Positions 5,501 to 26,779 of a DNA stretch of 32,387 nt are shown in pieces. Where the stretch lies: contig JAUVBY010000014.1 of the NCBI GenBank assembly GCA_030590945.1, positions 1-32,387 on the forward strand. Direction: 5' to 3'. How positions within the stretch are numbered: the stretch's first letter is position 1; each line of letters starts with the position of its first letter. The position numbers and the translations under genes were made by a program. A model generated the notes under the pieces. It ran no database searches, was not told where the DNA came from, and was given only the letters and a program-made list of their open reading frames with translations. This stretch comes from Gammaproteobacteria bacterium (GTDB taxonomy: Bacteria; Pseudomonadota; Gammaproteobacteria; Arenicellales; Poriferihabitantaceae).

Positions 5501-5597
5501 CACGCTGTAATTTCGGGAGTGCGCTTAGCCCGAGAATGATGATCGCCGCCATTAAAACATTGGCTGCTGTCGGGTGACCGGCAAAGAAACGGATCAT
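2505..5597 (-). CDS. RND-family efflux pump inner-membrane permease
   Basis: At 1030 residues this is the usual size of an AcrB/MexB-like permease, and the two halves repeat the same topology. One membrane segment sits at the extreme N-terminus, followed by a large periplasmic loop, six helices, a second loop and five or more helices. The N-terminal half carries the proton-relay aspartates in GLLMDDAIVISENI near residue 400. In the second half the AcrB Lys940 region reads GIVVNDNILLV, so the lysine is replaced by Asn/Asp as in some divergent RND subfamilies. The protein should export hydrophobic compounds using proton-motive force together with the adaptor encoded just upstream; their coding regions overlap by 4 bp (ATGA). 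No outer-membrane TolC-like gene is in the window, so an unlinked one is presumably used. The stop codon lies inside an 18-bp AT palindrome at 2498-2515. Confidence 0.93.
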   Translation of the reverse strand: MIRFFAGHPTAANVLMAAIIILGLSALPKLQRDTFPVIPTTEVEIRASYPGATPAEVEDSVCQRIEDTLDSVAGLREIRCDARENIAIATAQMYDGTNLDTFFNDVKSQVEAITGFPDKVEKAAIIKLERTANVASIAITGEMSPQGLKAYAESVKSRLKRDRRIAQVRVQGFSDQTLVIELPAGVLQRYGITLSDLRAAVERQSLDLPAGILQAKSGDIIVRFIGQRRTEEELANLVVISGKSGGRVRLGEIARIDTLFERPEDKVLFNGQRAAFLEISKTYDQDSLKVMDAIRENLERERAVAPRGVELAISSDVTSNIRDRLRILTSNGIQGLVLVFITMWLFFSLRFSFWVTMGLPVSLLGAVYGMHVLGYTLNMMTLVGLLVAIGLLMDDAIVISENIAAQLSQGKKSLEAAIDGVRQVMPGVLSSFFTTAVIVGPLAFLAGKMGDVLKFIPAVLLITLLVSLVEAFLILPAHLNHSMKHLHEEGRSRFQQKFQQGFNWIRDVIFLPVVEKVTGNPQLAIGMMLLLVLISLATLPAGILKYQAFPDLESDVIQARITLPQGTPLSRTEEVVARLVEALHTLDEEFTPRQPQGQSLIRNVSVLFNTNIDANESGAHVATVSTDLLPAGTRDGTVSEMLGRWRVLVGELPDVISLKFTDKERGIAGKAIDLRIQGRNLDTLKAASEEIKAFLATIDGLDDISDDLRPGKPEFRVHLKESAGVFGITARTVADELRTAIYGNTSLEVLRGYETYALTIRLASTDRDSLDDLLALRLRAPDGTLVPLGAVADIEQSRDYARIHRINGQRTVTVQASLDTAKANAREVMGLLSKRFLPSLKERYPTIRFVSQGQDKETAETGSSLQINLLVGLIGVYLILVLQFRSYIQPLAVMLAIPMAFIGVVWGHLAMGLDLTMPSLIGLATLAGIVVNDNILLVGFVKDRLRDGIDVKTAAWLAARDRFRPIMITSLTTLAGLLPLLTETSTQAQILIPLVASLAFGLLTATIASLFFVPAFFVFLDELQLLKIKN

Positions 5598-6919: not shown

Positions 6920-6962
6920 AAGGCCATCCCTCTTCCAGTCAGGGCTATTATATACAGGGATT

Positions 6963-8342
6963 CTACACTGTGTTTACTGCCAGGTCTGATTCGGAGGCCA
7001 GTAATAGCTGGGCTTCATTGCCTCCACCCTGTCGAGGCTGGAGCGTAATCTTCCAGCCCAGCGCCTGACAAAGCTGGCGCACAATGGCCAGACCGAGCCC
7101 ACTACCACCCGTTTTCAGATTACGTGAACCCTCTAAACGATAAAACGGACGAAAAACAGCCTCGCGCTCTTTCTCGGGTATGCCGGGACCCCTATCCATA
7201 ATAGAAATAAGTGGATAATCTCCCTGAAGGCTTAACTCGATAGAGACGGGCTTATTATCACTGTAACGCAGCGCATTTTCGACAAGGTTACGTAAAATCC
7301 TTAAGAAACTTTGCTCTGGCAGGGGCCAGATCAAGCTGTTGTTGAGCGCACTGTCAGCTTGAAACATGATCTCGCATTCACTATCCGGATGCTGTAACAG
7401 GCATTCAGCCTCGAGCTGTGAGGCCAGGGTCGTTAGCAGTCTAACCAGGTCGCGTTGCTTCAGCGGCTCTTTCTTATCAATTCCTCGCGCAAGCAATAAA
7501 GCTTGCTCCAGCAGTTGTTCCATTTCTTCAATATTGTTCTCAAGCCCGGAACGGTATGTTGAATCTGTAGTATCAGTATTAATTTCCAGGGCGAGACGAA
7601 TACGTGTCAATGGGGTTCTAAGGTCATGTGAAATTCCCGCCAGCAGCGTTGTCCTGTTCTCCAGTAATTCAGTCACTTCATGCGACATACGATTGAAGTT
7701 ATGCGCCAGGTTAACCAGTTCATCAGGCCCGTTATTTTCGACAATAATAGCGTTTCCGCCTTTCCCCACTGTCGTCGTGGCAGAGGAGAGTACGGCAAGT
7801 GGACGGGTAATGCGCAGCGCAATTATGAGTGCAGTACCGACTGCTAGCACCACCATTGCTATGGCCATCGCCAGCAAAGCTACGGGAGGACGAGCTCCAA
7901 TGCGTTCTACCGATATGCCAAATTGAAGTGAATTCTCCACCGTGGGAAGCGTGATCCATAACCAGCCAGGCTGATTTTTTTCGGCACCCATGGTAACTCT
8001 TGTACCCCCACCGAGACGCTTCTCCAGAGCTTTTTGTAACAAGCGTTGGTAGATATAGAATTGCGGTCGCATAGGTGCGTCAAGCGGGCGCTCGGCTTTA
8101 ACTAGTTTGATGTTGTGCGCATGCATCAATTCCGTCTCAAAATCGGGGCGCGTTTCAGGCGGTAATTCTGCCCAGGTCTGGGATGCGAGCACCAGTAATG
8201 CTGCCAGATCATCTGCGGAACGTTTACCCACGGGTACGATAACAAAATAGGCGCTGCTTGCCAGGACAATGAGCGACAGCAGCAAAAAGGAAATAATTAA
8301 TGTAGAAGCTGTTCTGAAAAAAAGCGTATTGGGAATGTTCAT
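6963..8342 (-). CDS. EnvZ-like sensor histidine kinase
   Basis: The 459-residue membrane kinase has helices at about 12-37 and 153-177 flanking a periplasmic sensor loop of about 115 residues. A HAMP linker (about 178-230) leads to the H-box GISHDLRTPLTRIRL with the phospho-accepting His239, very close to EnvZ. The ATPase part shows the N box RNLVENALRYS, the G1 box DRGPGIP and the G2 box GGSGLGLAIV. It should phosphorylate the regulator encoded immediately upstream, whose stop codon overlaps this start (ATGA, 1 bp shared). Leading the pump genes, it probably senses an envelope or drug signal that tunes pump expression. The ligand is unknown, and the sensor loop contains no domain I recognise. 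Confidence 0.93.
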   Translation of the reverse strand: MNIPNTLFFRTASTLIISFLLLSLIVLASSAYFVIVPVGKRSADDLAALLVLASQTWAELPPETRPDFETELMHAHNIKLVKAERPLDAPMRPQFYIYQRLLQKALEKRLGGGTRVTMGAEKNQPGWLWITLPTVENSLQFGISVERIGARPPVALLAMAIAMVVLAVGTALIIALRITRPLAVLSSATTTVGKGGNAIIVENNGPDELVNLAHNFNRMSHEVTELLENRTTLLAGISHDLRTPLTRIRLALEINTDTTDSTYRSGLENNIEEMEQLLEQALLLARGIDKKEPLKQRDLVRLLTTLASQLEAECLLQHPDSECEIMFQADSALNNSLIWPLPEQSFLRILRNLVENALRYSDNKPVSIELSLQGDYPLISIMDRGPGIPEKEREAVFRPFYRLEGSRNLKTGGSGLGLAIVRQLCQALGWKITLQPRQGGGNEAQLLLASESDLAVNTV

Positions 8343-9118
8343 CAGGTATTTGAACTGGTGCCGGGGGTGAAGCGATAACCCTCTCCCCAGACGGTGCGAA
8401 TGAATCTTGGTTTTGCACTGCTATCGTCTAATTTACGCCGCAGGCGGGTAATCCGAACATCGATACTGCGGTCGAAGGCATCGACTTCTCCCGCATTCAT
8501 CATGTCCATCAACTGTTCGCGGCTGAGTACTCGATTCGGATGAGTAAGCAGAATGATTAGCAGTTCCGTTTCACCGCTGGTTAGTTCCACCTCGTTGCCA
8601 TTTCGCCACAGAATCCGGGTTTCCAGGTCGAGCGTGAACTCCCCAAAAAGAGTGAGGTTCTGCGAGGTTTCCGGTTGCCTTGTTGCGGTGGAATTATTAT
8701 TTTCAGAATCTTCTGCCAAAGTGGAGGTTGCAGGGGAGCCTCGACGGAGCACGGCACGGATTCTGGCCAGTAGCTCGCGGGGATTGAACGGTTTGGACAG
8801 GTAATCATCCGCTCCCACCTCGAGACCGATGATCCTGTCCAGCTCCTCACCACGAGCAGAAAGCATAATGATAGGTGTTGGCGAGCGGTGGCGTATTCGC
8901 CGTGCCAGGGACAGGCCGTCTTCACCAGGCAGCATCAGGTCAAGGATTATCAAATCAGGGGCGTGTTGATCAAGCCAGTGATCCATGGCATTGCCGTCGC
9001 CTACCGCAGAAGTGACATAACCCTGCTCAGTTAGATACCTGGTCAGCAACTGTTGCAGTTGAAGATCATCATCGACAATCAGAATTATTTCTTTTTGCTG
9101 GTTACCGGGCACGGGCAT
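8342..9118 (-). CDS. OmpR-family response regulator
   Basis: The 258-residue protein has a receiver domain at about 11-125 with acidic pocket DDD (16-18), phospho-acceptor Asp60 (LIILDLMLP) and Lys109 (LSKPFNP). A C-terminal winged-helix DNA-binding domain ends in TVWGEGYRFTPG. The linker is unusually long and polar, a Ser/Thr/Asn/Glu-rich stretch at about 128-158. It is the first gene of a probable four-gene operon with the kinase, adaptor and permease. An OmpR-style direct repeat sits 22 bp upstream of its start at 9141-9160, which suggests autoregulation. It could also act on the divergent exported-protein genes. Confidence 0.93.
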   Translation of the reverse strand: MPVPGNQQKEIILIVDDDLQLQQLLTRYLTEQGYVTSAVGDGNAMDHWLDQHAPDLIILDLMLPGEDGLSLARRIRHRSPTPIIMLSARGEELDRIIGLEVGADDYLSKPFNPRELLARIRAVLRRGSPATSTLAEDSENNNSTATRQPETSQNLTLFGEFTLDLETRILWRNGNEVELTSGETELLIILLTHPNRVLSREQLMDMMNAGEVDAFDRSIDVRITRLRRKLDDSSAKPRFIRTVWGEGYRFTPGTSSNT

Positions 9119-11655: not shown

Positions 11656-12573
11656 TTACTTTGATGCCGCGATCATATGTAGCATTTCAAGCCCTATAGT
11701 CGCTCCCGCCAGTGAGGTTATCCCTGCATGATCATAGGCTGGCGCCACCTCCATCACATCCATCGCGACAAAATTAAGCCCCTTTAATGCCCGAATTATC
11801 TGTAGCGTTTTATCAGAAGTTAAACCTCCCGCTACCGGCGTGCCCGTCCCCGGGGCAAAGGCAGGGTCGAGACAATCAATGTCCAGACTCAGATAGACAG
11901 GTGAATCGCCAACCGCCTCCCTTATTCGTTCAACAGTTTCGCTAACTCCATGGTTATTCGTCCAGGCAGCATCCAGAACGGTAAAAGGATGGTTAGCGTA
12001 ATCATATTCTGTACGAATACCGATCTGGATTGTTTTTTCAGGATCGATAAGCCCTTCGATGGGGGCATGATGAAACATCGAACCATGATAATGGCCCTCG
12101 ACGCTGGTTTCATTATCGGTATGAGCATCAAAATGAATCAGGGCCAGTTTTCCATGATAACTGGCTGCCGCACGCAACAGTGGCAAGGTGACATAATGAT
12201 CACCGCCAAGCGTAAGCAGCATTTTCCCGGCCGATAGAATCTTGCTGGCCTCTGCCAACACCAATTCATCCATATGCCCGTGCTTACCGAGATCAAAATC
12301 GAGATCGCCATAATCGATGACCCGCAGCCTGTCAGCTAATGCGAAGGTATATGGCCAGCGCTTTTCTTCCCAACGCAATTGCGCAGCGGCCTGGCGTATA
12401 CCCGTGGGCCCATAACGCGTACCTGGGCGAGCAGAAGTGGCCAGGTCATAGGGCACGCCCATCACGACTGCGTCAACCTGGTCGTCTAATTCACGAGTCA
12501 GGGGAAAACCCATGAAGGTGAATATATTGGTATATGTATTTGCGTTCCTACCCAGTAAGTTAGCGTCCGTCAT
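11656..12573 (-). CDS. speB: Agmatinase (ureohydrolase family)
   Basis: The 305-residue enzyme hydrolyses agmatine to putrescine and urea. Its length and motifs match E. coli SpeB closely. The binuclear manganese ligands are all present: GGDH with His126, DAHTD at 149-153 and SLDIDCLDP with Asp231 and Asp233. The specificity-loop region HYHGSMFHHAPIEGLIDPEKTIQIGIRTEYD is followed in order by FAPGTGTPVAGGLTSD and MDVMEVAPAYD. An AGGAG ribosome binding site lies 5-6 bp before the ATG. A promoter-like pair upstream suggests independent transcription from the aminomutase operon. Guanidinobutyrase or guanidinopropionase activity cannot be excluded, but the similarity to true agmatinases is strong. 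No arginine decarboxylase is in the window. Confidence 0.92.
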   Translation of the reverse strand: MTDANLLGRNANTYTNIFTFMGFPLTRELDDQVDAVVMGVPYDLATSARPGTRYGPTGIRQAAAQLRWEEKRWPYTFALADRLRVIDYGDLDFDLGKHGHMDELVLAEASKILSAGKMLLTLGGDHYVTLPLLRAAASYHGKLALIHFDAHTDNETSVEGHYHGSMFHHAPIEGLIDPEKTIQIGIRTEYDYANHPFTVLDAAWTNNHGVSETVERIREAVGDSPVYLSLDIDCLDPAFAPGTGTPVAGGLTSDKTLQIIRALKGLNFVAMDVMEVAPAYDHAGITSLAGATIGLEMLHMIAASK

Positions 12574-12642: not shown

Positions 12643-12939
12643 TCACGGCGACAGGGTTTCGGCAGTGGATGAGGTAAACAGCAAAAGCCCATTACCCTGC
12701 GCCTTCATTATTTTGGCCGCACGTCGCGCTGTGAGGAAGGCGCCATCCAGATTTACCGCGAGGCAGGCGCGCCAGTCTTCGAACGTTATTTTTTCGATAG
12801 CATCTGGATGGGCGGCGGAAAAGTCAGCCAATGCCGCTTCGTCCACATCGCATATCGCGACTTGTGCACCCTGAGATAAAAATGCCTCAGCCATCGCCCG
12901 CCCGATTCCGGACGCGCCTGCAGTTACGGTAATACGCAT
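12643..12939 (-). pseudogene. Short-chain dehydrogenase/reductase with internal deletion and lost C-terminus
   Basis: The remaining 98 residues begin as a normal SDR: the cofactor loop TAGASGIG at 6-13, then VAICDVDEAALADF with the aspartate expected of an NAD-preferring enzyme. After AAHPDAI near residue 48 it jumps directly to EKITFEDWRACLAVNLDGAFLTARRAA, which in intact SDRs lies some 45 residues further on. The segment with the structural NAG motif is therefore missing in frame. The frame ends after LLLFTSSTA, just past the catalytic serine region and before the YxxxK motif and the substrate domain. A good ribosome binding site (GGAGAG) is still present, so a short product may be made, but it cannot be a working dehydrogenase. 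It is flanked by other gene debris. Confidence 0.85.
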
Positions 12940-13276: not shown

Positions 13277-14476
13277 TTATTCCCTTTCCAGGATAACAGC
13301 GATACCCTGCCCTACCCCCACACACATAGTACACAGTGCATGTTTTTCACCGCTGCGCTGTAGCTGGCGCATAGCGGTAATGACCAGTCGAGCGCCACTC
13401 ATACCGAGTGGGTGCCCTAAAGCAATAGCACCTCCCTGAGGATTGATCCTGGGATCGTCATCAGCCAGTCCCAGTTGGCGCGTACAGGCCAGCGCCTGGG
13501 CTGCAAACGCCTCATTCAATTCCAGAAGACCCAGGTCATCCATGGTTAAGCCCAGGCGCTTAAGTAGTTTGTTAGTCGCGGGTACCGGGCCAATTCCCAT
13601 AATTCGGGGAGCAACACCTGCTACCGCCATGCCGAGTATACGCGCCACGGGCTCCAGCTTATGTCGCTTTATTCCATCCTCCGAAGCCAGCAACAAAGCA
13701 GCGGCACCGTCGTTTATACCCGATGCATTTCCCGCTGTTATAGTACCCTGTTTAAAAATAGGTTTAAGCTGAGCCAATTTATCGATGGTGGTGTCGCGCA
13801 GGTGCTCATCTCTATCAACGATCAAGGAATCGCCCTTACGTTGTGGAATATTAACTGAAACTATTTCATCGGCCAGGCAGCCACGCTGTAGTGCATCGGC
13901 CGCTTTAACCTGGCTTCCAAGTGCAAAGCGATCCTGGTCTTCACGGCTTATCACAAATTCATGGGCCAGGTTTTCAGCTGTTTTAGGCATAGCCTCCGTA
14001 CCATATAACTGATCCATTTGCTGGTTAACAAATCGCCACCCCATCGTCGTGTCATACATTTGTGATGAACGATCGAATGCCGAAGTGGCTTTAGCAATAA
14101 CAAATGGGGCACGAGACATACTTTCAACGCCACCCGCAATGATCAAATCAGCTTCACCAGACTTGATCGTATTAGCGCAGAGACCTACCGCATTCATGCC
14201 CGAACCACACAAGCGATTAATGGTACTGGCGGGTACTTCCTGGGGTAGTCCCGCAAGCAACGCGGCCATGCGTGCGACGTTGCGGTTATCTTCCCCTGAC
14301 TGATTGGCGCAACCGAGCATCAAGTCATCCACAGCTGCCCAGTCAACTCCGGGACTGCGATCCATTAATGCTTTAAGTGGAATAGCGGCCAGATCATCGG
14401 CGCGGATAGTGGACAGCGCACCGCCGTAACGACCGATTGGCGTACGAATTCCATCACAAATAAAAACGTCAGTCAT
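13277..14476 (-). CDS. pcaF: 3-oxoadipyl-CoA thiolase (PcaF/PaaJ type)
   Basis: The 399-residue acyl-CoA acetyltransferase closely follows PcaF/PaaJ: start [44 protein letters not shown], and nucleophile Cys90 in [11 protein letters not shown]. It continues with [31 protein letters not shown], His355 in [12 protein letters not shown] and Cys385 in [10 protein letters not shown]. PcaF-type enzymes split 3-oxoadipyl-CoA with CoA into succinyl-CoA and acetyl-CoA. It is the last gene of the five-gene operon, 24 bp after the aminotransferase, with a GAGG ribosome binding site. No ring-cleavage genes are in the window, so here the 3-oxoadipyl-CoA would come from the amino-acid route inferred from its neighbours. 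A broader beta-ketoacyl-CoA specificity is possible. Confidence 0.9.
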
Positions 14477-14500: not shown

Positions 14501-15847
14501 TCATGCAGTTTTGTCTTTTGTTAATAATTCTTTGATTTTACGAAATCCAGCCAGCATTACATCAGCGAGAATATCGACCTCCTTTTCCGTCATCATCGTA
14601 GAAAGCGTGCCCGAGCAAGTATTAATCATCATAATGCCGTTATTAAACAAGTGATCCAACAACAGTTTAAGCCTTGTTGCTTCCTCGGGTGTTTGAAAAG
14701 CCGCACGATAATTGGCAGGTGGTTCAGATTTCATATGGACTCTGAACATTGAACCACCGCCCGTGACACAGGCAGGGATATCGCTTATGCGGATCGCCTC
14801 CGCGAGTTGAATGCGGGCGTAATCCGCCAACTGATTCAATCTCAATATTGCGGTCTGGTCAAACAATTCCATAGTGACAAGTCCGGCCATCATCGTAATC
14901 GGGTTAGCTGAAAAGGTACCTGAGTGCGGGAAAAGCACTTTATCTGCGAGTGGGTTCATCACATCCATGACCTCCGCTCGTCCAGCCAACGCACCTACCG
15001 GAAAGCCGCCGCCAATCATCTTACCCATCGCGGTCAGATCGGGACTGACCTGGTACCACTCCTGGGCGCCTCCATAAGCAGAGCGGAATGTTATCACCTC
15101 GTCATAAACCAACAGCGCGCCGTTATCACGAGTCCACTGATGTAATGCCTGCACAAATTCCTGCGAGGCGGGTAACAGGCCAACTCGATGCGGTAACAAG
15201 TCAATTAACACACAGGCCAATTCATCGGCATGTTGATCCAGAATAGCAACGGCTCGTTCAGCATCGTTAAACGGAATCACCACTACATCCTTCAGTGCCG
15301 AGGCAGGCGTTCCATGAGCAACGGCTACGCTGGCTGGTTTTTCCTTATCCCCCCAGTCTGCGGGTTTGGAGGTCTGGCTGACTTCCGCGTAGTCATAAAG
15401 ACCGTGGTAGGCACCTTCCACCTTGGCAATTTTAGCGCGCCCGGTATAGGCACGCGCTGCTTTTAGGCAGCTCATAACTGCTTCGGTGCCGGAATTCATA
15501 AAGCGGATTTTATCAAAGCCGGGATTCCGGCTACAGAGATGCTCGGCGTAATCGATTTCCACCTCGGTAGCCAGGGTAAAAGCCGTGCCTTTTTTTAACT
15601 GCTCGGTAACCGCCGACACCACCTCTGGATGCGCATGACCATGGATCAACGAGGCCATATTATTAGCAAAGTCGATGCGCCTGACGCCTTCGATATCGGT
15701 CACATAACAGCCCTTTCCACGCTCGGCATAAAGCGGGTGCGGTTTGCGCAGAACCGTATTACGACTACAGCCACCAGGCATAACTTTGAGGGCCCGCTGG
15801 TAAAGCGCAGCACTGGATGATTGCTCTATTAAAATGTCTTGTTGCAT
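14501..15847 (-). CDS. Class III PLP aminotransferase, probably beta-amino acid specific
   Basis: The 448-residue fold-type I enzyme is of the glutamate-1-semialdehyde-aminomutase-like branch. It shows MPGGCSRNTVL, a phosphate-binding NSGTEA at 118-123, the PLP-ring aspartate in VYDEV (Asp249) and the Schiff-base Lys276 in TAMGKMIGGGFPVGALAGR. A HemL role is unlikely given the operon and the altered substrate region (KPHPLY at the start, DLLPHRVGLLPAS near 217-227). This branch includes characterised beta-transaminases such as beta-phenylalanine aminotransferase. Next to an aminomutase that makes beta-amino acids and a CoA-transferase for 3-oxoacids, removal of a beta-amino group to give a 3-oxoacid fits best. 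That assignment is inferred. It starts 19 bp after the CoA-transferase beta gene. Confidence 0.82.
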   Translation of the reverse strand: MQQDILIEQSSSAALYQRALKVMPGGCSRNTVLRKPHPLYAERGKGCYVTDIEGVRRIDFANNMASLIHGHAHPEVVSAVTEQLKKGTAFTLATEVEIDYAEHLCSRNPGFDKIRFMNSGTEAVMSCLKAARAYTGRAKIAKVEGAYHGLYDYAEVSQTSKPADWGDKEKPASVAVAHGTPASALKDVVVIPFNDAERAVAILDQHADELACVLIDLLPHRVGLLPASQEFVQALHQWTRDNGALLVYDEVITFRSAYGGAQEWYQVSPDLTAMGKMIGGGFPVGALAGRAEVMDVMNPLADKVLFPHSGTFSANPITMMAGLVTMELFDQTAILRLNQLADYARIQLAEAIRISDIPACVTGGGSMFRVHMKSEPPANYRAAFQTPEEATRLKLLLDHLFNNGIMMINTCSGTLSTMMTEKEVDILADVMLAGFRKIKELLTKDKTA

Positions 15848-15866: not shown

Positions 15867-16541
15867 CTACTGCCAACCAGCCACTATCAGTTCGCAGCCC
15901 GTTTTTTGCTGTACATAATCCGGGTCGATACCCGGGGCCAGCTCTACCAACTTCAATCCTTCAGACGTAACATCGATCACTGCCAGGTCTGTAAAAATCC
16001 GGCTAACAACTGCCTTCCCGGTCAATGGATAGGAGCAGGATTTCACCAGTTTCGGGTCGCCGGTTTTAGTGCAGTGCTGGGTAATGATGTAAATAGTTTT
16101 AACCCCTGCCACCAGATCCATGGCCCCACCCACCGCCGGAATCGCATCTGCCAAACCGGTTGACCAGTTAGCCAGATCACCGTTTTGTGACACCTGCATC
16201 GCGCCCAGTACGCAAATATCGATATGACCACCGCGAATCATCGAGAAGCTGTCCGCATGATGAAAATAAGCGGCACCGGGAATAGCGGTTACCGGCCTCT
16301 TCCCGGCATTAATAAGCTCGGGGTCGCCTTCGCCAACATCGGGTGGGACTCCCATTCCCAACAGGCCATTCTCGGTATGATAGATAACCTCTCTGCCCTC
16401 AGGCACATACTGCGCCACCTGTTCCGGGATACCAATTCCCAAATTGACATAGGCACCGTCGGGAATGTCCAGCGCTGCCCGCCTGGCCATCTGCTCCCGG
16501 TTCCAGCCCACTGATGCAGTTGACGACTCCCCGACTGTCAT
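15867..16541 (-). CDS. pcaJ: 3-oxoacid (probably 3-oxoadipate) CoA-transferase, subunit B
   Basis: The 224-residue beta subunit of a family I CoA-transferase carries the catalytic glutamate in HTENGLLGMG (Glu57), which forms the enzyme-CoA thioester. The stretches GAYVNLGIGIPEQVA, AYFHHADSFSMIRGGHIDICVLGAMQVS, GDLANWSTGLADAIPAVGGAMDLV and FTDLAVIDVTSEGLKLVELAPGID follow PcaJ closely. With subunit A it moves CoA from succinyl-CoA to a 3-oxoacid. The start overlaps the stop of subunit A (ATGA), as expected for coupled expression of a heteromer. Acetoacetate or another 3-oxoacid is an alternative substrate; the PcaF-like thiolase two genes downstream favours 3-oxoadipate. Confidence 0.88.
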   Translation of the reverse strand: MTVGESSTASVGWNREQMARRAALDIPDGAYVNLGIGIPEQVAQYVPEGREVIYHTENGLLGMGVPPDVGEGDPELINAGKRPVTAIPGAAYFHHADSFSMIRGGHIDICVLGAMQVSQNGDLANWSTGLADAIPAVGGAMDLVAGVKTIYIITQHCTKTGDPKLVKSCSYPLTGKAVVSRIFTDLAVIDVTSEGLKLVELAPGIDPDYVQQKTGCELIVAGWQ

Positions 16542-17248
16542 GGATAGGCCCTGCCATCATTCACGAGCACGGACTCAAGTGCGGGATTTGCCACGGTGAC
16601 GACACGATTTACAAAAATACCCGGCGTTACTACAACTTCCGGATCGATCTCACCTAGCTCCATCAGAGCGCTTGCTTGCACGATAGTAGTGCCTGCCGCC
16701 ATCGCCATAATCGGCCCGAAATTACGCGCAGTTTTATTAAAAACCAGATTCCCATATCGGTCGGCTCGGGCACACTTCAGCAGGGCAAAGTCAGCTTTCA
16801 GGCCATATTCCAAAACATAATCGCGGCCATCAAAGCTGCGCACTTCTTTACCTTCACCCAGAGGCGTACCAACCGAGGTGGCCGTGTAAAAAGCGGGGAT
16901 GCCAGCACCACCAGCCCTGATGCGCTCGGCCAAAGTCCCTTGCGGCACCAGCTCCAGCTCAATCTCACCACGGCGATACAAATCGGGAAAAACAGTGGAG
17001 TTCGCAGTCCGTGGATACGAGCAAACCATCCTGGCGACCTGGTGGTTCTCGATCAACGCAGCCAGACCGACATGCCCGCTTCCAGTATTGTTGTTGACCA
17101 CGGTAAGGGCTTTTGCGCCCAGATCGATCAGCGCATGAATTAATTCGATGGGGCTTCCGGCTTCGCCAAAACCACCGATCATAACCGTCGCGCCATCAAA
17201 AATGTCGGCAACCGCTTGCGCTGCTGAATCAACTCTCTTATCAATCAT
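16538..17248 (-). CDS. pcaI: 3-oxoacid (probably 3-oxoadipate) CoA-transferase, subunit A
   Basis: The 236-residue alpha subunit has the glycine-rich CoA-binding start GATVMIGGFGEAGSPIELIHAL, the family stretch ALTVVNNNTGSGHVGLAALI and IELELVPQGTLAERIRAGGAGIPAFYT. It ends its conserved part with FNKTARNFGPIMAMAA and PEVVVTPGIFVNRVV, resembling PcaI more than ScoA or AtoD. It forms the enzyme with subunit B. It starts only 6 bp after the aminomutase stop, with a G-rich ribosome binding site inside that gene's end, so translation is likely coupled. No signal peptide, so the enzyme is cytoplasmic. Confidence 0.88.
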   Translation of the reverse strand: MIDKRVDSAAQAVADIFDGATVMIGGFGEAGSPIELIHALIDLGAKALTVVNNNTGSGHVGLAALIENHQVARMVCSYPRTANSTVFPDLYRRGEIELELVPQGTLAERIRAGGAGIPAFYTATSVGTPLGEGKEVRSFDGRDYVLEYGLKADFALLKCARADRYGNLVFNKTARNFGPIMAMAAGTTIVQASALMELGEIDPEVVVTPGIFVNRVVTVANPALESVLVNDGRAYP

Positions 17249-17254
17249 TGCGGG

Positions 17255-18691
17255 CTAGCCCCCCACAACCTCATGCAGGGGGATGCTCTGCTCAGCAACA
17301 CCCTCGAATAAACCGGCTTCGTCGTAAAGCACACGATCATTATAACCACTGAACCAGATAGCATCCGGATTACGACCGAGAATCGTCACCTTGCCACGAT
17401 CGGGCGCATCTGCGGCTCCTCGCAACAGCTTCATGATGACGAAACCATTTTCACCGCCTGGCACTCCAGGCAACGGATCATTCGTCACCGCCGCCACTTC
17501 GGTTTTGCCCTTGTAGTGGGTGATCGACAGACGCGCATGGGTTTCTACGCCGGACAGTCCTTTTTGCGATTCGTTGAGAATATGCCAGGCTTCTTCAATT
17601 GGCACATTAAACGCCTTGTGGCCGATGATATCCCTGCCGCAAAAATAGTAATGGTTTTCCACACCGTTGCGCTTGAGTTCCCGCTGCTGGATACGCAGTG
17701 CATCCGCATCGTTATTAATGCCACGGATAATTGGCGCCTGGTTGTCGACATTAAGCCAGTTGCGGCTGCGCAGTTTCCTGACTGCCTGCCTGGTGCTATC
17801 CACCCACTGCAGGCCGCCTTCAAGGTCATCCATATAGTTCCCATCGGCGTCCTTCTTAAGAAATTCATCCGGATGGTTAAAATGAATCATGATCCTGACA
17901 CTGACGCCTGGATAAATTTCGTGAAACTTATCCATCATGTCGAAAAATGTATCGTCAAAACGATCCGGGTAAAAGCCGAGCTCCTTAGTTCCGATACGAA
18001 TATTCTCAACGCCAACTTCAGCTAAAGCAGACAACCACGCGCCAATATTTTTATTACTAAGCACCATGGGATCACCCCCGGACATCAGGATTTCACGCAA
18101 CTTTTCACGCCCGGTCTGTGGATGTTTACCGCCATTCTCTGCAACTACCCGGTTGTGCTCTTTTACATAGGCGACAATTTCACTAATCTGCGCCAGTCCT
18201 TTTGGCGCCACGGTACCGTCGGGACGCTCCACCTCTTTCCTTGCTATCAGTTCCTCGCGGTAACAAAACCGGCAGTGTGCCGAACAGGTCGAAGCGACAT
18301 AAATTAATCCTAATTCGTATTTATGAATCAAACCCTCTACCGGGCTGTAATCCATCTGTTTTCCCGGGTCGGGAGCGCCATCGAGATCATAGGTTTCTTT
18401 CGGGCTGGCTTTCACCAGCACTTGCAACGGCGTGCTATTTTTCGCCAACTCGAAATAATGGCGGGTCATTTTTACCGGCATGCGCGCCTCGACGTCGTTT
18501 ACCGTACCCTTCAAATCAGTCAACACTTTCAATTCATCAGCGCTGTAAAAAGACAGCATGTCTTCAGGCACCTTGCCGTCCACAAACTTTTTTAACCCCG
18601 TTACAATTTGACGGTCGTACTTGCCATTAGTGACCGAATCCAGAAATGCCTGCTCTTTTTCCGAAGGCTGGTACTTTGCTGCTGTTGACAT
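17255..18691 (-). CDS. kamA: KamA-family radical-SAM amino acid 2,3-aminomutase
   Basis: The 478-residue protein (ATG at 18691, chosen over a GTG at 18700 because AGGTG sits about 6 bp before it) is a radical-SAM, PLP-dependent 2,3-aminomutase. The [4Fe-4S] cluster motif CSAHCRFCYR gives Cys136, Cys140 and Cys143; the SAM contact reads ILMSGGDP near 202-208. The canonical lysine enzyme converts L-lysine to L-beta-lysine. Aligned by eye to it, the first substrate-binding aspartate (Asp293 of the clostridial enzyme) may be kept in YYFCGRD (Asp354). The second (Asp330) appears to be serine, and the PLP lysine is in THYKGKTEV (Lys396 or Lys394) instead of a GGGGK loop. The substrate may therefore be lysine or another amino acid such as 2-aminoadipate or glutamate. 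It heads an operon with CoA-transferase, aminotransferase and thiolase genes. Confidence 0.85.
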   Translation of the reverse strand: MSTAAKYQPSEKEQAFLDSVTNGKYDRQIVTGLKKFVDGKVPEDMLSFYSADELKVLTDLKGTVNDVEARMPVKMTRHYFELAKNSTPLQVLVKASPKETYDLDGAPDPGKQMDYSPVEGLIHKYELGLIYVASTCSAHCRFCYREELIARKEVERPDGTVAPKGLAQISEIVAYVKEHNRVVAENGGKHPQTGREKLREILMSGGDPMVLSNKNIGAWLSALAEVGVENIRIGTKELGFYPDRFDDTFFDMMDKFHEIYPGVSVRIMIHFNHPDEFLKKDADGNYMDDLEGGLQWVDSTRQAVRKLRSRNWLNVDNQAPIIRGINNDADALRIQQRELKRNGVENHYYFCGRDIIGHKAFNVPIEEAWHILNESQKGLSGVETHARLSITHYKGKTEVAAVTNDPLPGVPGGENGFVIMKLLRGAADAPDRGKVTILGRNPDAIWFSGYNDRVLYDEAGLFEGVAEQSIPLHEVVGG

Positions 18692-18708
18692 GTTAATCAC
18701 CTGTGTTA

Positions 18709-18896: not shown

Positions 18897-19802
18897 ATGC
18901 CCTATCAACGAAGACTACTACCCAGCACCAGCATGATGGCAGCATTCGATGCAGCCGCCCGGACGGGCAGTTTTACCGCTGCGGCCAGAGAACTAAGCCT
19001 GACCCAGGGCGCCATCAGCCGACAGATTGGCGCCCTTGAAAATCAACTCGATGTTGTTCTGTTTAAAAGAATCGGCAATAACATCCACCTGACAAATGCC
19101 GGGGAAATTTACGCCAGGGAAATCAATGCGGCCCTGCAGGCGATCCGCAACGCTTCTCTCAATGCCATGACCGATCCGAGGGTCGGTACCTTGAATCTGG
19201 CAATTCTGCCTACTTTTGGCACGCGCTGGCTGATGCCCCGGTTTCCCTTGTTCCTCAAGGAAAACCCCGACATTACGGTAAATTTTGTCTCCAGACTTTC
19301 ACCCTTCGACTTTCAAAACGAAGACTTGCACGCCGCTATACACTATGGTTCACCGGAATGGCCCGGCACCGACAGCTCCTTTCTGATGAACGAAAAAGCG
19401 GTGCCTGTTTGCTCACCAGGAATTCTCAGCCAGAATCCCCTGGAGAATGCCGAGACTTTAACGCGGTTGCCACTGCTGCATCTAGCTACCCGGCCCGATG
19501 CCTGGAGAAACTGGTTTCAGTCAAATGGGCTCGAGATGCCAAAGGGCCAGGGTATATTATTTGAGCAGATTTCAATTATTGCCCAGGCAGCGGTGGGGGG
19601 GTTGGGAGTGGCTCTGTTACCGAAATTTCTGATCCAGAGTGAGCTTGACCGGGGTGAGTTGGTGGTGATCGTCGATAAACCGCTACAAAGCGATGCTGGT
19701 TACCACCTTATCACGCCCGTCGATAAATCGGACTATGCACCCATGGTTGCTTTTCGCAGTTGGATTCTGAAAATGGCGGCCCTACAAACTACCTGCGACT
19801 GA
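18897..19802 (+). CDS. LysR-family regulator (GcvA type), likely controller of the aminomutase operon
   Basis: The 301-residue protein opens with a winged helix-turn-helix at about 12-70 (AAFDAAARTGSFTAAARELSLTQGAISRQIGALENQL). A periplasmic-binding-like effector domain follows, with GTLNLAILPTFGTRWLMPRFPLF and the GcvA-group stretch DLHAAIHYGSPEWPGTD. It diverges from kamA with an inverted-repeat LysR box between them, so it probably activates that operon in response to the amino acid or an intermediate. The ATG at 18897 gives the normal N-terminus; an ATG at 18890 is out of frame. A GAGG lies about 13 bp before the start. The effector is unknown. Confidence 0.88.
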   Translation: MPYQRRLLPSTSMMAAFDAAARTGSFTAAARELSLTQGAISRQIGALENQLDVVLFKRIGNNIHLTNAGEIYAREINAALQAIRNASLNAMTDPRVGTLNLAILPTFGTRWLMPRFPLFLKENPDITVNFVSRLSPFDFQNEDLHAAIHYGSPEWPGTDSSFLMNEKAVPVCSPGILSQNPLENAETLTRLPLLHLATRPDAWRNWFQSNGLEMPKGQGILFEQISIIAQAAVGGLGVALLPKFLIQSELDRGELVVIVDKPLQSDAGYHLITPVDKSDYAPMVAFRSWILKMAALQTTCD

Positions 19803-19974: not shown

Positions 19975-21498
19975 ATGTCGAGACGTAAACGCGGATCCAG
20001 GCGACGCAGCAACGATTCAATCGCACAAATCCCCCAGCTACCACGCTCCAACATCGTCAACCGTTTCCAGCCACTGGAAATACTGGACAACGCGTCACTG
20101 GATAAAATTCATAACACCGCCATGCGCATCGTAGAGGACCTCGGCGTGGTCTTTCAGGATGACGAAGCACTGACGATACTACGCCATAATGGAGCCAGTA
20201 TCGATGAGGCGGGTACCGTTCGGCTGGATGCCGAGACCCTGATGCACTGGATCGGCAAGTGCCCCTCCAGTTTTCAGCTGCACGCCCGCAACCCTGAACG
20301 GAACGTGACCATCGGCGGCAACAATATCCACCTCGCTCCTGTTGGTGGGCCACCCAACATCTCCGACCTGGATAACGGTCGTCGGGCCGGTACCTTCGAG
20401 GATCAGTGTAACCTGATCAAGTTGGGTCAGAGCCTGAACATTCTCTCCCTGGGCGGTGCGGCTCCAGTTGAGGCGATCAACCTACCCGCCGAGACGCGTC
20501 ATCTCGACTTCTATCATGCCCAAATCACCCTCACCGACCGGGCCTGGAACGCCAGGGCCATCGGCGCCGAACGGGTCACCGACGCGCTGGAGATGGTAGC
20601 CATTGCCCGCGGCATCGATCGCCAACAACTCATGCGCGAGCCTAGCCTGCTCAGTGTGGTGAACATCAACTCACCTCGCATCATGGACGGTGAGATGCTA
20701 ACCGGTCTGATGGAAATGGTGCGCAATGGTCAGCCTTGCATCATTACGCCCTTCACCCTGGCGGGTGCCATGAGCCCAGTAACTCTGGCTGGCGCTCTGG
20801 CCCAGCAGACCGCCGAGGCACTGCTGGTAATTGCCTTTACCCAGATGATCAACCCCGGTTGCCCAGTGGTGTTTGGCGGCTTCACCTCCAATGTCGACAT
20901 GAAGTCCGGCGCACCCGCATTCGGCACCCCGGAATACGCCCAGGCGATCCTGATTGGCGGCCAGCTGGCCCGCCGCTACGGCCTGCCTTATCGCACCAGC
21001 AATGTCAACGCATCCAACGCCGTTGATGCCCAGGCTACCTACGAAACCATGATGTCCCTGTGGGCCGCCATGATGGCCCACGCCAACATCATCAACCACG
21101 CGACCGGCTGGCTGGAGGGCGGTCTAACTGCCTCTCTGGAAAAATACATCCTCGATGCGGAAGTTTTACAAAACCTCAAGCAACTACTGATCCCGCCTAA
21201 GGTCGATGAGGATAGCCTGGCCTTCGAAGCAATCCGGGCAGTACCCCCAGGGGGCCACCACCTGGGCTCCGAACACACTATGGCCCGCTTCAAAACCGCC
21301 TTTTACGCACCGATACTGTCAAACTGGCAGAACTTCGAATCCTGGCAGGATGACGGCGCAAAGACCGCGACTGAAAGAGCTAACGCCATCTGGAAGGCCC
21401 TGCTCGCGGAATACAGCCCTCCACCCCTGGATTTGGCGATCCGACAACAACTCGATGAATATATTACCATGCGCAAGGAGCAGATTCAGGCCGCCTGA
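19975..21498 (+). CDS. Trimethylamine methyltransferase family protein (MttB-like, non-pyrrolysine)
   Basis: The 507-residue protein belongs to the MttB superfamily. Family-like segments include LDKIHNTAMRIVEDLGVVFQDDEAL, IHLAPVGGPPNISDLDNGRRAGT, a long run of barrel strands, TPEYAQAILIGGQLARRYGLPYRTSNVNASNAVDAQATYE and HEDSLAFEAI-like later helices (here VDEDSLAFEAIRAV). The frame has no in-frame amber codon, so it lacks the pyrrolysine of true trimethylamine enzymes. It thus groups with MttB-like proteins such as glycine betaine, proline betaine and carnitine methyltransferases. The basic N-terminus (SRRKRGSRRRS) is unusual. No corrinoid protein or reactivase gene is in the window. A GAGG ribosome binding site lies 9-12 bp upstream. 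Substrate is unknown; a quaternary or tertiary amine is likely. Confidence 0.82.
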   Translation: MSRRKRGSRRRSNDSIAQIPQLPRSNIVNRFQPLEILDNASLDKIHNTAMRIVEDLGVVFQDDEALTILRHNGASIDEAGTVRLDAETLMHWIGKCPSSFQLHARNPERNVTIGGNNIHLAPVGGPPNISDLDNGRRAGTFEDQCNLIKLGQSLNILSLGGAAPVEAINLPAETRHLDFYHAQITLTDRAWNARAIGAERVTDALEMVAIARGIDRQQLMREPSLLSVVNINSPRIMDGEMLTGLMEMVRNGQPCIITPFTLAGAMSPVTLAGALAQQTAEALLVIAFTQMINPGCPVVFGGFTSNVDMKSGAPAFGTPEYAQAILIGGQLARRYGLPYRTSNVNASNAVDAQATYETMMSLWAAMMAHANIINHATGWLEGGLTASLEKYILDAEVLQNLKQLLIPPKVDEDSLAFEAIRAVPPGGHHLGSEHTMARFKTAFYAPILSNWQNFESWQDDGAKTATERANAIWKALLAEYSPPPLDLAIRQQLDEYITMRKEQIQAA

Positions 21499-22587: not shown

Positions 22588-25047
22588 ATGAAATCATCCG
22601 TCAAGATCGCCGTCATCGGCGGTGGCATTGTGGGATGCAGTATCCTTTATCATCTGGCCCGTCGAGGTTGGAGCAATGTCGTCATGCTCGAGCGCCGTGA
22701 GTTAACTGCGGGTTCTACCTGGCACGCCGCCGCCAGTATGCACCGCCTGCATGGCAACCCAAACATTGCCCGCCTGCAAGTTTACAGTAACGCGCTATAC
22801 CGAAAACTGGAAGAGGAAACGGGGCAAAGCTGCGGTATCCATACCCCGGGTGGCCTCTATCTGGCTTCGAGCAAGGCTCGCATGCAGGAGTTAAAGATTC
22901 AGCACTCTCGATCCAAATACCTGGGCTTCGACGTCCAGTTATTGAGCGTGGACGAGATCAAGCAATTTAACCCGTTGGTAGATACCGAGGGCCTTTACGG
23001 CGGCATGTGGGATCCCGAAGATGGTCATGTCGATCCATCGGGTGTTCCCCATGCACTGGCCAGGAGCGCCCGAGACAACGGTGCCGAAATCTATCGCAAC
23101 ACCGAAGTGCTGGCTACTCGCCCGGTCGAAGGAGGCTGGGAGATCGAAACCAATAACGGAACTTTGTTCGCCGAGAACATTGTCAATGCCGCCGGCCTTT
23201 GGGCACGTGAGGTGGGCGAGCTGGCCGGGATTAAACTCCCACTGCTGCCGATGGAGCATCAGTATCTGGTGACTGAGTCAATCGACGCGGTCAGAGGCCT
23301 TGGTCACGAAATGCCTCTCACCCGAGATTATGACCGTGGTTTCTATATGCGCCAGGAGGGCGAGGGACTGTTGGTCGGTGCTTATGAAAAACACGGTGTT
23401 CCGTGGTCCGAATTTGGCACACCCAAAAATTTTGGTGCCGAACTGTTGACGCCGGATATTGATCGCTGGGAAAGTAACCTGGAACAGGCGATGATTCGTG
23501 TGCCCTGTTTTGGCCAGGCCGGGATACGTCAAGTGATCAACGGCCCGATGGTTTTTAGCCCCGATGGCCTGCCCCAGTTGGGTCCGGTTCAGGGGTTGAA
23601 AAACTACTTTGTGGCGGTGGGCATCATGGCCGGCTTTTCCCAGGGGGGTGGCATCGGCAAGATTATGTCCGACTGGATCATCGACGGCAATCCCGACATG
23701 GAGCTATTCCCGTTAGATGTCACCCGCTTTGGCGATTTCGCCACGCCAGCCTATACCAAAGCCAAGGTGCTGGATAACTACGGACGCCGCTTCGGTATCC
23801 ACTACCCCAATGAAGAGCGTCTGGCCGGCCGCCCCAGCCGGGTGCTGCCGATCCATGAGTTACTGCTCGAAAAAGGCGCAGTGATGGGGTCGGCGCACGG
23901 CCTGGAGCGCCCGCTGTGGTATCGCCCTGCGGGATCTGACCTGCAGGACACTCCCAGTTTTGAGCGTAACGCCGTGTTCGACGTAGTCGGCGAAGAGTGC
24001 CGCGCGCTGCGCAGTGGTCTGGGGCTACTGGAGCTCAGTTCCTTCGGCCAACTGATTGTCAGCGGCCCCGACGCCACTCGTTTCCTCGGCTATATATTTG
24101 CCGGTAAACTACCGGGAAAGACCGGTGTCATGAGTATTTGCCCGATGCTAAACGATAGGGGTGGTATCATCGGCGACTACACCGTTACCCTATTGGAGGA
24201 TGGCTCCTATTACCTGACCGGTGCTTCCAACGCCGAAGCTTACCATTTTCGCCACTTCGAAAAGCATCGGAGAGATCTGGACGTAGAATGGCACAGTCTG
24301 ACCAGGAATCATGGCGTATTAGGCATTGCCGGCCCTCATTCTCGGCTATTAATGGAACGGCTGACCGGTGCCGACATGAGCAATGAGGCGCAACCCTTTT
24401 TCCGTATGCGGGAACTGATGATCGATGACATCCCGGTTCGAGCTTTTCGCGTCTCCTTTACTGGAGACCTCGGTTACGAGTTGCACTTTGCCGACCAAAA
24501 TCAGCCCGCGTTATTTGCACGATTGCTCGCCGAAGGACAGGATCTGGGACTGCACCTGGTCGGAGCCCGCGCTCTGGACAGCCTGCGGCTGGAAAAAGGT
24601 TATCCTCGCTGGGGACTGGAACTCACTGCCGATACGCTGCCCGGGCCAGCCGGAATGGCTCGTTTCCTGGATCAGGATCGGAACTATATAGGGCACACTG
24701 CGTTGCAATCTCACTCAAAGAGTGACAATTCATGGTGCCTGGTGACCCTGACGGTTGACGTTGAACTGGCTGACGCCGTGGGTAACGAACCGGTGATTAT
24801 GGATGGCCAGGTCGTTGGAATCGTCACCTCAGGAGGTTACGGTCACAGCGTCGATAAGAGCATTGCCCTGGCCTACCTGAAACCCGAATGCTGCCGCGAG
24901 GGTCTTGTGTTGAGCGTTGATATTATCGGTTATCACTGTCCGGCCCAGGTTCATCTCAACCCGTTATTCGACCCCCATGGCTACCGGCTCCGCGGTGTAG
25001 AACCCCGGGGGGAACCACGGGCATCGATCAATATGATGCATAAATAA
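22588..25047 (+). CDS. Dimethylglycine/sarcosine dehydrogenase-like flavoprotein with C-terminal GcvT domain
   Basis: The 819-residue protein has an N-terminal FAD-binding DAO domain starting with KIAVIGGGIVGCSILYHLA (GGGIVG at 11-16). The next motif is TAGSTWHAAAS, whose His46 matches the histidine that carries covalent FAD in dimethylglycine and sarcosine dehydrogenases. The linker domain spans about 375-430, and a GcvT-like folate-binding region fills 430-819 (LLELSSFGQLIVSGPDA, SFTGDLGYELHFAD, RLEKGYPRWGLEL). Such enzymes oxidise an N-methyl group and pass the carbon to tetrahydrofolate as methylene-THF. The closest function is demethylation of a dimethylated or monomethylated amino acid, but the substrate is uncertain. 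It is the first gene of a four-gene operon and lies close to an MttB-like gene. Confidence 0.87.
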   Translation: MKSSVKIAVIGGGIVGCSILYHLARRGWSNVVMLERRELTAGSTWHAAASMHRLHGNPNIARLQVYSNALYRKLEEETGQSCGIHTPGGLYLASSKARMQELKIQHSRSKYLGFDVQLLSVDEIKQFNPLVDTEGLYGGMWDPEDGHVDPSGVPHALARSARDNGAEIYRNTEVLATRPVEGGWEIETNNGTLFAENIVNAAGLWAREVGELAGIKLPLLPMEHQYLVTESIDAVRGLGHEMPLTRDYDRGFYMRQEGEGLLVGAYEKHGVPWSEFGTPKNFGAELLTPDIDRWESNLEQAMIRVPCFGQAGIRQVINGPMVFSPDGLPQLGPVQGLKNYFVAVGIMAGFSQGGGIGKIMSDWIIDGNPDMELFPLDVTRFGDFATPAYTKAKVLDNYGRRFGIHYPNEERLAGRPSRVLPIHELLLEKGAVMGSAHGLERPLWYRPAGSDLQDTPSFERNAVFDVVGEECRALRSGLGLLELSSFGQLIVSGPDATRFLGYIFAGKLPGKTGVMSICPMLNDRGGIIGDYTVTLLEDGSYYLTGASNAEAYHFRHFEKHRRDLDVEWHSLTRNHGVLGIAGPHSRLLMERLTGADMSNEAQPFFRMRELMIDDIPVRAFRVSFTGDLGYELHFADQNQPALFARLLAEGQDLGLHLVGARALDSLRLEKGYPRWGLELTADTLPGPAGMARFLDQDRNYIGHTALQSHSKSDNSWCLVTLTVDVELADAVGNEPVIMDGQVVGIVTSGGYGHSVDKSIALAYLKPECCREGLVLSVDIIGYHCPAQVHLNPLFDPHGYRLRGVEPRGEPRASINMMHK

Positions 25048-25114
25048 GAAACGCAATTTGAAAAACCCGGATTGGATTTTCACTAAAAAAATTCTTTATT
25101 TTAAGGTCAGGCGA

Positions 25115-26779
25115 ATGGTAACCAAACGAACTGGTGGACGGGTACTGGTACAGGCACTCGAAAACAACGGTATTGATCACATCTTCGGCGTTCCGGGCGA
25201 AAGCTACCTCGAGGTATTGGATGCCCTGTATGATGCCGGGGAAAAAATCCGTTATATAACCTGTCGTCAGGAAGGCGGTGCGGCCTTTATGGCAGAGGCC
25301 TACGCCCGTTTAACAGGATTACCTGGCATTTGCTTCGTAACGCGAGGCCCTGGCGCCACCAATGCATCGATTGGCGTTCATACTGCCTTTCAGAGTTCCA
25401 CCCCATATATCCTCCTGATCGGACAGGTTCCACGCCAGAATACCGACCGTGAGGCTTTCCAGGAAATCGACTATCGGCGCATGTTCGGCCAGATGGCAAA
25501 ATGGGTCGCCCAGATAGAAGACGCCGCTCGTATCCCGGAATACATTAATCGCGCATTTCAAACCGCCCTGTCAGGCAGGCCAGGCCCGGTGGTTCTTGCG
25601 CTGCCGGAAGATATGTTGCGCGACGTGATCGAGGTCGAGGACCTGGAACCGGCTAGTCCCGTTCGCACTTATCCGGGACCCCAACAACTGGAGCAGCTCC
25701 ATAACATGCTGGAAAAATCGCAGCGCCCCCTTTTCATCGTCGGTGGCAGCATCTGGACCGACCAGGCACGCCTGGCTTTTGAGGCCTTTGCCAGCTCCAA
25801 TAACCTACCGGTCAGCGTGGCGTTCCGTCGTCAGGGAATTTTTGACGGCAATCATGACAGCTACTGTGGCGACCTGGCCTGGGGACCCATTCCCAGCCTG
25901 CGTACCGCGGTCGAGGAAACCGATTTGATCATTTCCTTCGGTGCCCGGCTAAACGAGGGGACTACCTCCAAATACACCCTGCCGCAAGCTCCAAAGCCGA
26001 AACAAACCCTGGTTCATATCTATGCCGATGCCGAGGAACTGGGCCGCGTATACCAGGCAGACTTAATGATTCATGCCAGCGTTTGCGAAATGGTTGAGGC
26101 GTTTACCGCAATGACCGTGTTGACGGAAAATAAGGATCGGGCGAAATGGTGCAGGAAATTACGCGCTGATTACCTTGGGGCATTGGATGCCGGACCGCAA
26201 CCCGGTGATCTGGACATGAATCTGGTGATGGACTACCTACGTAAAAACCTGCCGAAAGACACTATTGTTACCACCGGCGCCGGTAACTATGCCGATTGGC
26301 CAAACCGGATCTACCAATATTGTGGTGTTGATACAAACCTGTCACCAATCAGTGGAGCTATGGGTTATAGCGTCCCAAGCGCGGTTTGCGCCAGCATCAC
26401 CCGGCCAGACCGGGTTGTCATCGGTTTTGCCGGCGATGGCGACTTCCTGATGAACGCCCAGGAGTTAGCCGTTGCTCAGCAATATGGTGGTAAACCGATT
26501 ATAATCGTGGTGAACAATAATCTCTATGGCACCATTCGCATGCATCAACAGCGCCGCCATCCGGGCAGGGTTAGTGGAACTGAATTATGGAATCCGAATT
26601 TCGCGTCTTATGCCGAGGCATTCGACGGCTATGGCGAGGTGGTACGGACAACCGATGAATTTGTGCCGGCCTTCGAACGCGCCCGGGCTTCAGGGAAGCC
26701 TGCAGTACTCGAACTGCAAATCGATCCTGAATGCATTTGCTACGGCATGCCGGGACTTAGTCAACTTCCACCGATCTAA
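25115..26779 (+). CDS. Thiamine-diphosphate-dependent enzyme, acetolactate-synthase-like
   Basis: The 554-residue protein (ATG at 25115, chosen over a TTG at 25058 because homologues begin at MVTKRTGGRVLVQAL and AAGG lies about 8 bp upstream) has three domains in order. The N-terminal PYR domain has catalytic Glu53 in CRQEGGAAFMAEAYARL, a central domain spans about 190-330, and the C-terminal ThDP domain has the motif GDGDFLMNAQEL to NNN (440-469). The family includes acetolactate synthase, sulfoacetaldehyde acetyltransferase and 2-oxoacid decarboxylases. No regulatory subunit gene is adjacent, so a biosynthetic acetolactate synthase is unlikely. Before an aminotransferase it may act on the 2-oxoacid that enzyme makes. 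Exact reaction unknown. Confidence 0.85.
   Translation: MVTKRTGGRVLVQALENNGIDHIFGVPGESYLEVLDALYDAGEKIRYITCRQEGGAAFMAEAYARLTGLPGICFVTRGPGATNASIGVHTAFQSSTPYILLIGQVPRQNTDREAFQEIDYRRMFGQMAKWVAQIEDAARIPEYINRAFQTALSGRPGPVVLALPEDMLRDVIEVEDLEPASPVRTYPGPQQLEQLHNMLEKSQRPLFIVGGSIWTDQARLAFEAFASSNNLPVSVAFRRQGIFDGNHDSYCGDLAWGPIPSLRTAVEETDLIISFGARLNEGTTSKYTLPQAPKPKQTLVHIYADAEELGRVYQADLMIHASVCEMVEAFTAMTVLTENKDRAKWCRKLRADYLGALDAGPQPGDLDMNLVMDYLRKNLPKDTIVTTGAGNYADWPNRIYQYCGVDTNLSPISGAMGYSVPSAVCASITRPDRVVIGFAGDGDFLMNAQELAVAQQYGGKPIIIVVNNNLYGTIRMHQQRRHPGRVSGTELWNPNFASYAEAFDGYGEVVRTTDEFVPAFERARASGKPAVLELQIDPECICYGMPGLSQLPPI

Follow-up and report, generated by a model that had tools for sequence, protein, structure and literature searches.

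A KamA-like gene of a gammaproteobacterium (assembly GCA_030590945.1, contig JAUVBY010000014.1) quite probably encodes a radical-SAM, PLP-dependent 2,3-aminomutase of L-2-aminoadipate. The gene lies in the window, by which we mean the whole analysed stretch of 32,387 nucleotides (positions 1 to 32,387 of the forward strand of the contig), and opens a minus-strand operon in which it is followed by CoA-transferase subunits A and B, a class III aminotransferase and a 3-oxoadipyl-CoA thiolase (Table 1). It is probable that this aminomutase joins the aminoadipate branch to 3-oxoadipate thiolysis, in an undescribed lysine catabolism that would convert lysine to acetyl-CoA and succinyl-CoA without carbon loss and whose genes horizontal transfer would have carried into several phyla and to a conjugative plasmid.

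Table 1. The aminomutase operon and the adjoining regulator gene in the window.
Feature	Position	Strand	Assignment or basis
Aminomutase (radical SAM/PLP, KamA-like)	17255..18691	-	proposed 2-aminoadipate 2,3-aminomutase
3-Oxoacid CoA-transferase subunit A (PcaI/ScoA family)	16538..17248	-	TIGR02429, 346 bits (cut-off 128.5)
3-Oxoacid CoA-transferase subunit B (PcaJ/ScoB family)	15867..16541	-	TIGR02428, 297.6 bits (cut-off 243.6)
Class III aminotransferase, glutamate-1-semialdehyde/beta-amino-acid transaminase group	14501..15847	-	structure relatives
3-Oxoadipyl-CoA thiolase (PcaF)	13277..14476	-	TIGR02430, 678.2 bits (equivalog cut-off 597)
LysR-type regulator, GcvA-like, divergent	18897..19802	+	adjoins aminomutase in 15 orthologous loci

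The aminomutase reading frame is intact on the minus strand from 17255 to 18700 and comprises 481 aa counted from GTG 18700 or 478 aa counted from ATG 18691. The ATG, which is Met4 of the 481-aa frame, is preceded by AGGTG and seems the likelier start, with the GTG being possible; residue numbers given here count from the GTG. The protein scored below the cut-offs of the general KamA family (TIGR00238; 103.4 bits, cut-off 199.2) and of the models for lysine (TIGR03820; 78.2 bits, cut-off 525.4), glutamate (TIGR04368; 90.6 bits, cut-off 650) and arginine 2,3-aminomutase (85.2 bits, cut-off 600). A Pfam search gave no match, and a search of PDB sequences returned the lysine 2,3-aminomutase (LAM) 2A5H as the sole relative. 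The AlphaFold model (pLDDT 78, pTM 0.82) also had 2A5H as its top PDB fold match (E 8e-13), followed at far weaker scores mostly by other radical-SAM enzymes; the superposition on 2A5H is globally loose (TM 0.53-0.62, rmsd 7.5), and the structurally aligned residues are about 19% identical. The aminomutase is a KamA-fold radical-SAM/PLP enzyme, distant from every named family.

The active-site residues were then compared with those of LAM, in which we take Asp293 and Asp330 to bind the lysine side chain. The protein contains the radical-SAM motif CSAHCRFC, whose cluster cysteines C139-C143-C146 (CxxxCxxC) are invariant across the alignment, and it retains R134 and Q258 of LAM as R148 and Q321. 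Profile alignment (hhalign, probability 99.4%) of 43 aminomutase sequences with a lysine-aminomutase set including 2A5H paired YYIYQCD293LSLGLEHF of LAM with HYYFCGR356DIIGHKAF of the aminomutase in an ungapped stretch. The Asp293 position is therefore R356, which is invariant (43/43). The preliminary description, made from the window sequence, had an aspartate kept near Asp293; that reading was out of register by one residue, the aspartate being the neighbouring D357, also invariant (43/43). The Asp330 position falls on S392 when a single-residue gap is placed upstream and on I393 when it is placed in the loop, and the segment A389-R-L-S-I-T-H-Y396 contains neither Asp nor Glu, in keeping with the serine proposed there earlier. 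In place of the GGGG loop ahead of the PLP lysine stands THYKGKTEV, as had also been noticed. K399 in GKTEV corresponds to the lysine of GKTPV in 2A5H, and the segment alignment pairs it with LAM K337. Since K399 is invariant (43/43), whereas its rival K437 is lysine in just 40 of the 43 sequences, K399 is the likely Schiff-base lysine for PLP. Pairing of LAM K337 with K437, obtained across long gaps in a full-protein MAFFT alignment, was rejected because K437 is not invariant and the segment alignment favours K399. The structural model is weak in the key loop (pLDDT < 50 at 354-360). The earlier suspicion that the substrate may not be lysine is strengthened, given that both recognition aspartates are gone, with an invariant Arg in the place of one of them.

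R356, S392 and K399 are invariant across Alpha- and Gammaproteobacteria, Planctomycetes, Bacteroidetes and Acidimicrobiia at 66-92% identity, so the pattern is more than chance. The pocket looks made for a carboxylate side chain. Five glutamate-aminomutase-like sequences (L070-L074; 618-637 bits against the TIGR04368 cut-off of 650) have Lys at the Asp293 position and Ser at the Asp330 position, which upholds the analogy with glutamate 2,3-aminomutase drawn before; a sixth candidate, L075, was dropped, having Asp at both positions and clustering with 2A5H. The glutamate 2,3-aminomutase of Clostridioides difficile (Eam) has Lys and Asn at the two positions. Judged by these residues, the Arg/Ser pattern resembles an acidic-substrate aminomutase, unlike the lysine enzyme. 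The pair alone would indicate an acidic side chain at most and not 2-aminoadipate as such, since a sister clade of uncharacterised proteins has the same pair.

This relationship was seen in a tree of 67 sequences, in which the 44 close orthologues formed a single clade (support 99/99), separate from the lysine and glutamate aminomutases. Their sister is the uncharacterised clade with Arg at 293 and, mostly, Ser at 330, possibly another acidic-substrate aminomutase. Its members L077, L078, L079, L081, L084 and L085 are KamA-like proteins of 440-480 aa found in several groups of bacteria; they show motifs such as VERDTGA and GLARTxRGPSMSAxPGKV, and their gene surroundings are different. Within the orthologue clade, Bacteroidetes copies are nested among proteobacterial ones; moreover, this genome alone among 60 nearby genomes has the gene, and a conjugative Mesorhizobium plasmid carries a copy annotated as a hypothetical protein. 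On these grounds the aminomutase gene appears to spread horizontally. The plasmid gene order is aminomutase, ferredoxin FdxA, aminotransferase and CoA-transferase subunit. A BREX phage-defence system (pglX, pglZ, brxL; L076:1-6890) and a thiamine-diphosphate enzyme (L076:22028-23740) each lie within a few kb of the plasmid aminomutase genes.

In the window, the nearest named PDB relatives of the operon PcaF are the beta-ketoadipyl-CoA thiolases 6pca-6pcd, and no other PcaF scored above the cut-off in this genome (99% complete). PcaD was likewise not found above its cut-off, so there is no sign of an aromatic branch in this genome; HglS was not found in it either. The best solved relatives of the operon aminotransferase are the class III aminotransferase 6k8h, ForI and GSAM, followed by the beta-transaminases 2yku and 4ao9, and we propose that it is a 3-aminoadipate transaminase. 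The divergent LysR-type regulator likely controls the operon. Judged by their families, the operon enzymes would convert a 3-amino dicarboxylate to a 3-oxo acid, its CoA ester and then two acyl-CoAs, which counts for 2-aminoadipate; the aminotransferase and CoA-transferase families would leave the chain length unfixed, which counts against specificity for it.

Several other genes were noted in the window. An agmatinase-family ureohydrolase above its cut-off (11656-12573, minus strand) lies 0.7 kb past the operon and was not encountered in the orthologous loci that we inspected. Between them, a 98-aa ORF (12643-12939, minus strand) matches two separate parts of a short-chain dehydrogenase (about model residues 1-40 and 93-143) and appears to be what an internal deletion left of an SDR gene. 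On the plus strand, a methyltransferase of the MttB superfamily (19975-21498; 273 bits against 525) is near a GcvT/FAD fusion oxidoreductase (22588-25047), and a thiamine-diphosphate enzyme of the PRK08199 type (25058-26779) is a few kb distant from the aminomutase gene. A single minus-strand gene run (2505-9118) encodes, by sequence reading, an RND-type efflux transporter, an HlyD-like membrane-fusion protein, a sensor kinase and a response regulator.

We compared 42 related loci (aminomutase identity 66-92%). The aminotransferase recurs in 30 and the CoA-transferase subunits in 23-24; a LysR gene is present in 15, and FdxA directly follows the aminomutase in six. Orthologues of both the aminotransferase and the CoA-transferase adjoin the aminomutase in Alpha- and Gammaproteobacteria, Bacteroidetes and Acidimicrobiia. 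Two loci besides the window have an adjacent PcaF that shares over 65% identity with the window's copy. In Planctomycete loci the CoA-transferase pair is more distant, and the thiolase does not score as PcaF.

L-Piperidine-6-carboxylate dehydrogenase produces 2-aminoadipate. A gene of this family neighbours the aminomutase, directly or at a short distance, in seven of the 42 loci (L004, L017, L031, L034, L036, L037 and L042), and the two copies tested against NF050084 (cut-off 730) scored 796.5 (L042) and 765.4 bits (L036). The linkage occurs in five gene orders; therefore, the association has outlasted rearrangement. Position alone would predict 0.17 such neighbours, and seven were observed (P ~6e-10, an optimistic value that assumes independent loci). 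Four of the seven loci additionally contain a gene of the saccharopine/lysine-dehydrogenase family related to 3ABI, which we take to be a lysine dehydrogenase, and three contain an Lrp-type regulator. A thiamine-diphosphate enzyme of the PRK08199 type was also seen between a lysine-dehydrogenase-like gene and the L-piperidine-6-carboxylate dehydrogenase gene (L066:2652-4337).

The same dehydrogenase was found above the cut-off in 37 of 43 carrier genomes and in 26 of 184 further genomes sampled from the class (Fisher P ~2e-19, which ignores kinship and the wider taxonomic spread of carriers and is optimistic). One of these 26, G358, had been sampled irrespective of the aminomutase and has an aminomutase itself (67% identity), together with CoA-transferase A/B, PcaF and a different class III aminotransferase, the dehydrogenase being elsewhere in the genome; G358 repeats the gene set out of sample. 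In the genome of the window, the dehydrogenase (789 bits, NF050084) is on another contig, next to another class III aminotransferase; identification of the latter as an L-lysine 6-transaminase found little support, at just 52 of 521 bits. HglS was not found in 38 of the 43 carrier genomes. Among the cultured carriers are Hoeflea poritis E7-10 and Cucumibacter marinus DSM 18995, the latter with an HglS of its own. These points also speak against the 2-aminoadipate reading: the dehydrogenase is off the window contig, six of the 43 carriers are without a dehydrogenase above the cut-off, and the Planctomycete thiolase is not PcaF. The operon and the orthologue neighbourhoods favour 2-aminoadipate, the alternative substrate named in the preliminary description.

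The same enzyme classes could serve a glutamate 2,3-aminomutase, with glutamate passing through beta-glutamate, 3-oxoglutarate and 3-oxoglutaryl-CoA to acetyl-CoA and malonyl-CoA, or with beta-glutamate acting as an osmolyte, and the basic residue at 293 with Ser at 330 is like that of the glutamate-aminomutase-like sequences. We consider this unlikely. The aminomutase falls far short of the TIGR04368 cut-off and lies outside the glutamate-aminomutase clade in a tree with well-supported clades, it is recurrently linked with L-piperidine-6-carboxylate dehydrogenase and the lysine-dehydrogenase-like gene, and the operon thiolase is a 3-oxoadipyl-CoA thiolase by a curated cut-off; the osmolyte variant is further disfavoured by the presence of the aminotransferase, CoA-transferase and thiolase. 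It is thus because of the gene context that 2-aminoadipate is preferred over glutamate. A 2,3-aminomutase of another acidic amino acid, such as a hydroxylated or methylated derivative of glutamate or aminoadipate with the same downstream steps, would agree with the Arg/Ser pocket, with the same pair in the sister clade and with the CoA-transferase and thiolase families, which tolerate some variation; it is very improbable, given that plain 2-aminoadipate suits all linked genes, the dehydrogenase included, with no extra steps. Also very improbable is a lysine (or arginine/ornithine) 2,3-aminomutase whose pocket has been rearranged, forming beta-lysine, 3-oxo-6-aminohexanoate, its CoA ester and finally acetyl-CoA and 4-aminobutyryl-CoA: the nearest solved relative is a lysine 2,3-aminomutase and an agmatinase-family gene lies downstream of the operon, but both lysine-recognition aspartates are missing, one being an invariant Arg, the lysine and arginine models give only 78 of 525 and 85 of 600 bits, and the thiolase type and the linkage to a 2-aminoadipate-producing dehydrogenase speak against it.

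For the preferred 2-aminoadipate route, we infer the substrate, the product and every reaction with its direction from protein families and gene context. Lysine would be converted via aminoadipate semialdehyde to 2-aminoadipate, the last step by the L-piperidine-6-carboxylate dehydrogenase encoded elsewhere in the genome. By a LAM-type mechanism, a 5'-deoxyadenosyl radical would take a hydrogen from C3 of PLP-bound 2-aminoadipate, and the nitrogen would migrate via an azacyclopropylcarbinyl radical to give 3-aminoadipate. R356, with S392, may grip the distal carboxylate where Asp293 and Asp330 of LAM grip the epsilon-ammonium group, and FdxA, where linked, is a possible electron donor for SAM cleavage. 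The class III aminotransferase would then form 3-oxoadipate, the CoA-transferase 3-oxoadipyl-CoA, and PcaF acetyl-CoA and succinyl-CoA, so that the whole route would proceed without decarboxylation.

Almost all annotated lysine-degradation pathways terminate at glutaryl-CoA (PMC5653290). Literature searches on 3-aminoadipate, on an aminoadipate aminomutase and on aminoadipate with 3-oxoadipyl-CoA, which left most subscription papers outside their reach, yielded no account of such a route. Neither the fold nor the chemistry is new; the predicted substrate and pathway appear undescribed in the searchable literature, and an earlier description is possible. If the 2-aminoadipate reading is true, the aminomutase family gains a new substrate, and lysine degradation can bypass 2-oxoadipate, glutaryl-CoA and both decarboxylations, with amino-acid catabolism joined directly to 3-oxoadipate thiolysis; in carriers, four-carbon units of lysine could reach the TCA cycle intact. 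Genes annotated as hypothetical proteins in marine, symbiotic and soil bacteria would receive a function, and the family would offer a test case for two residues switching aminomutases between cationic and anionic side chains.

With lysine 2,3-aminomutase (KamA/AblA; 2A5H), the aminomutase has in common the fold, CxxxCxxC, the Arg after the cluster (R134/R148), the Gln (Gln258/Q321) and the PLP-lysine in GKTxV. Where LAM has Asp293, Asp330, Arg112, Arg116 and Arg136, it has Arg, Ser/Ile, Lys, Gly and Glu, respectively; THYKG takes the place of the glycine loop, and there are extra insertions. Glutamate 2,3-aminomutase (TIGR04368) shares the basic residue at the Asp293 position and the uncharged one at the Asp330 position; here, however, the basic residue is Arg and not Lys, the clade is another, and the gene belongs to a catabolic operon that also encodes a CoA-transferase and a thiolase. 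The beta-ketoadipate pathway (PcaIJ, PcaF) shares CoA activation and thiolytic cleavage of 3-oxoadipate and is fed by aromatics, whereas the proposed route would be fed by lysine via an amino acid. The known 2-aminoadipate routes (2-oxoadipate to glutaryl-CoA; HglS to D-2-hydroxyglutarate) likewise take 2-aminoadipate from L-piperidine-6-carboxylate dehydrogenase; in contrast to these, the proposed route would move the amino group and not first remove it, and would keep all six carbons.
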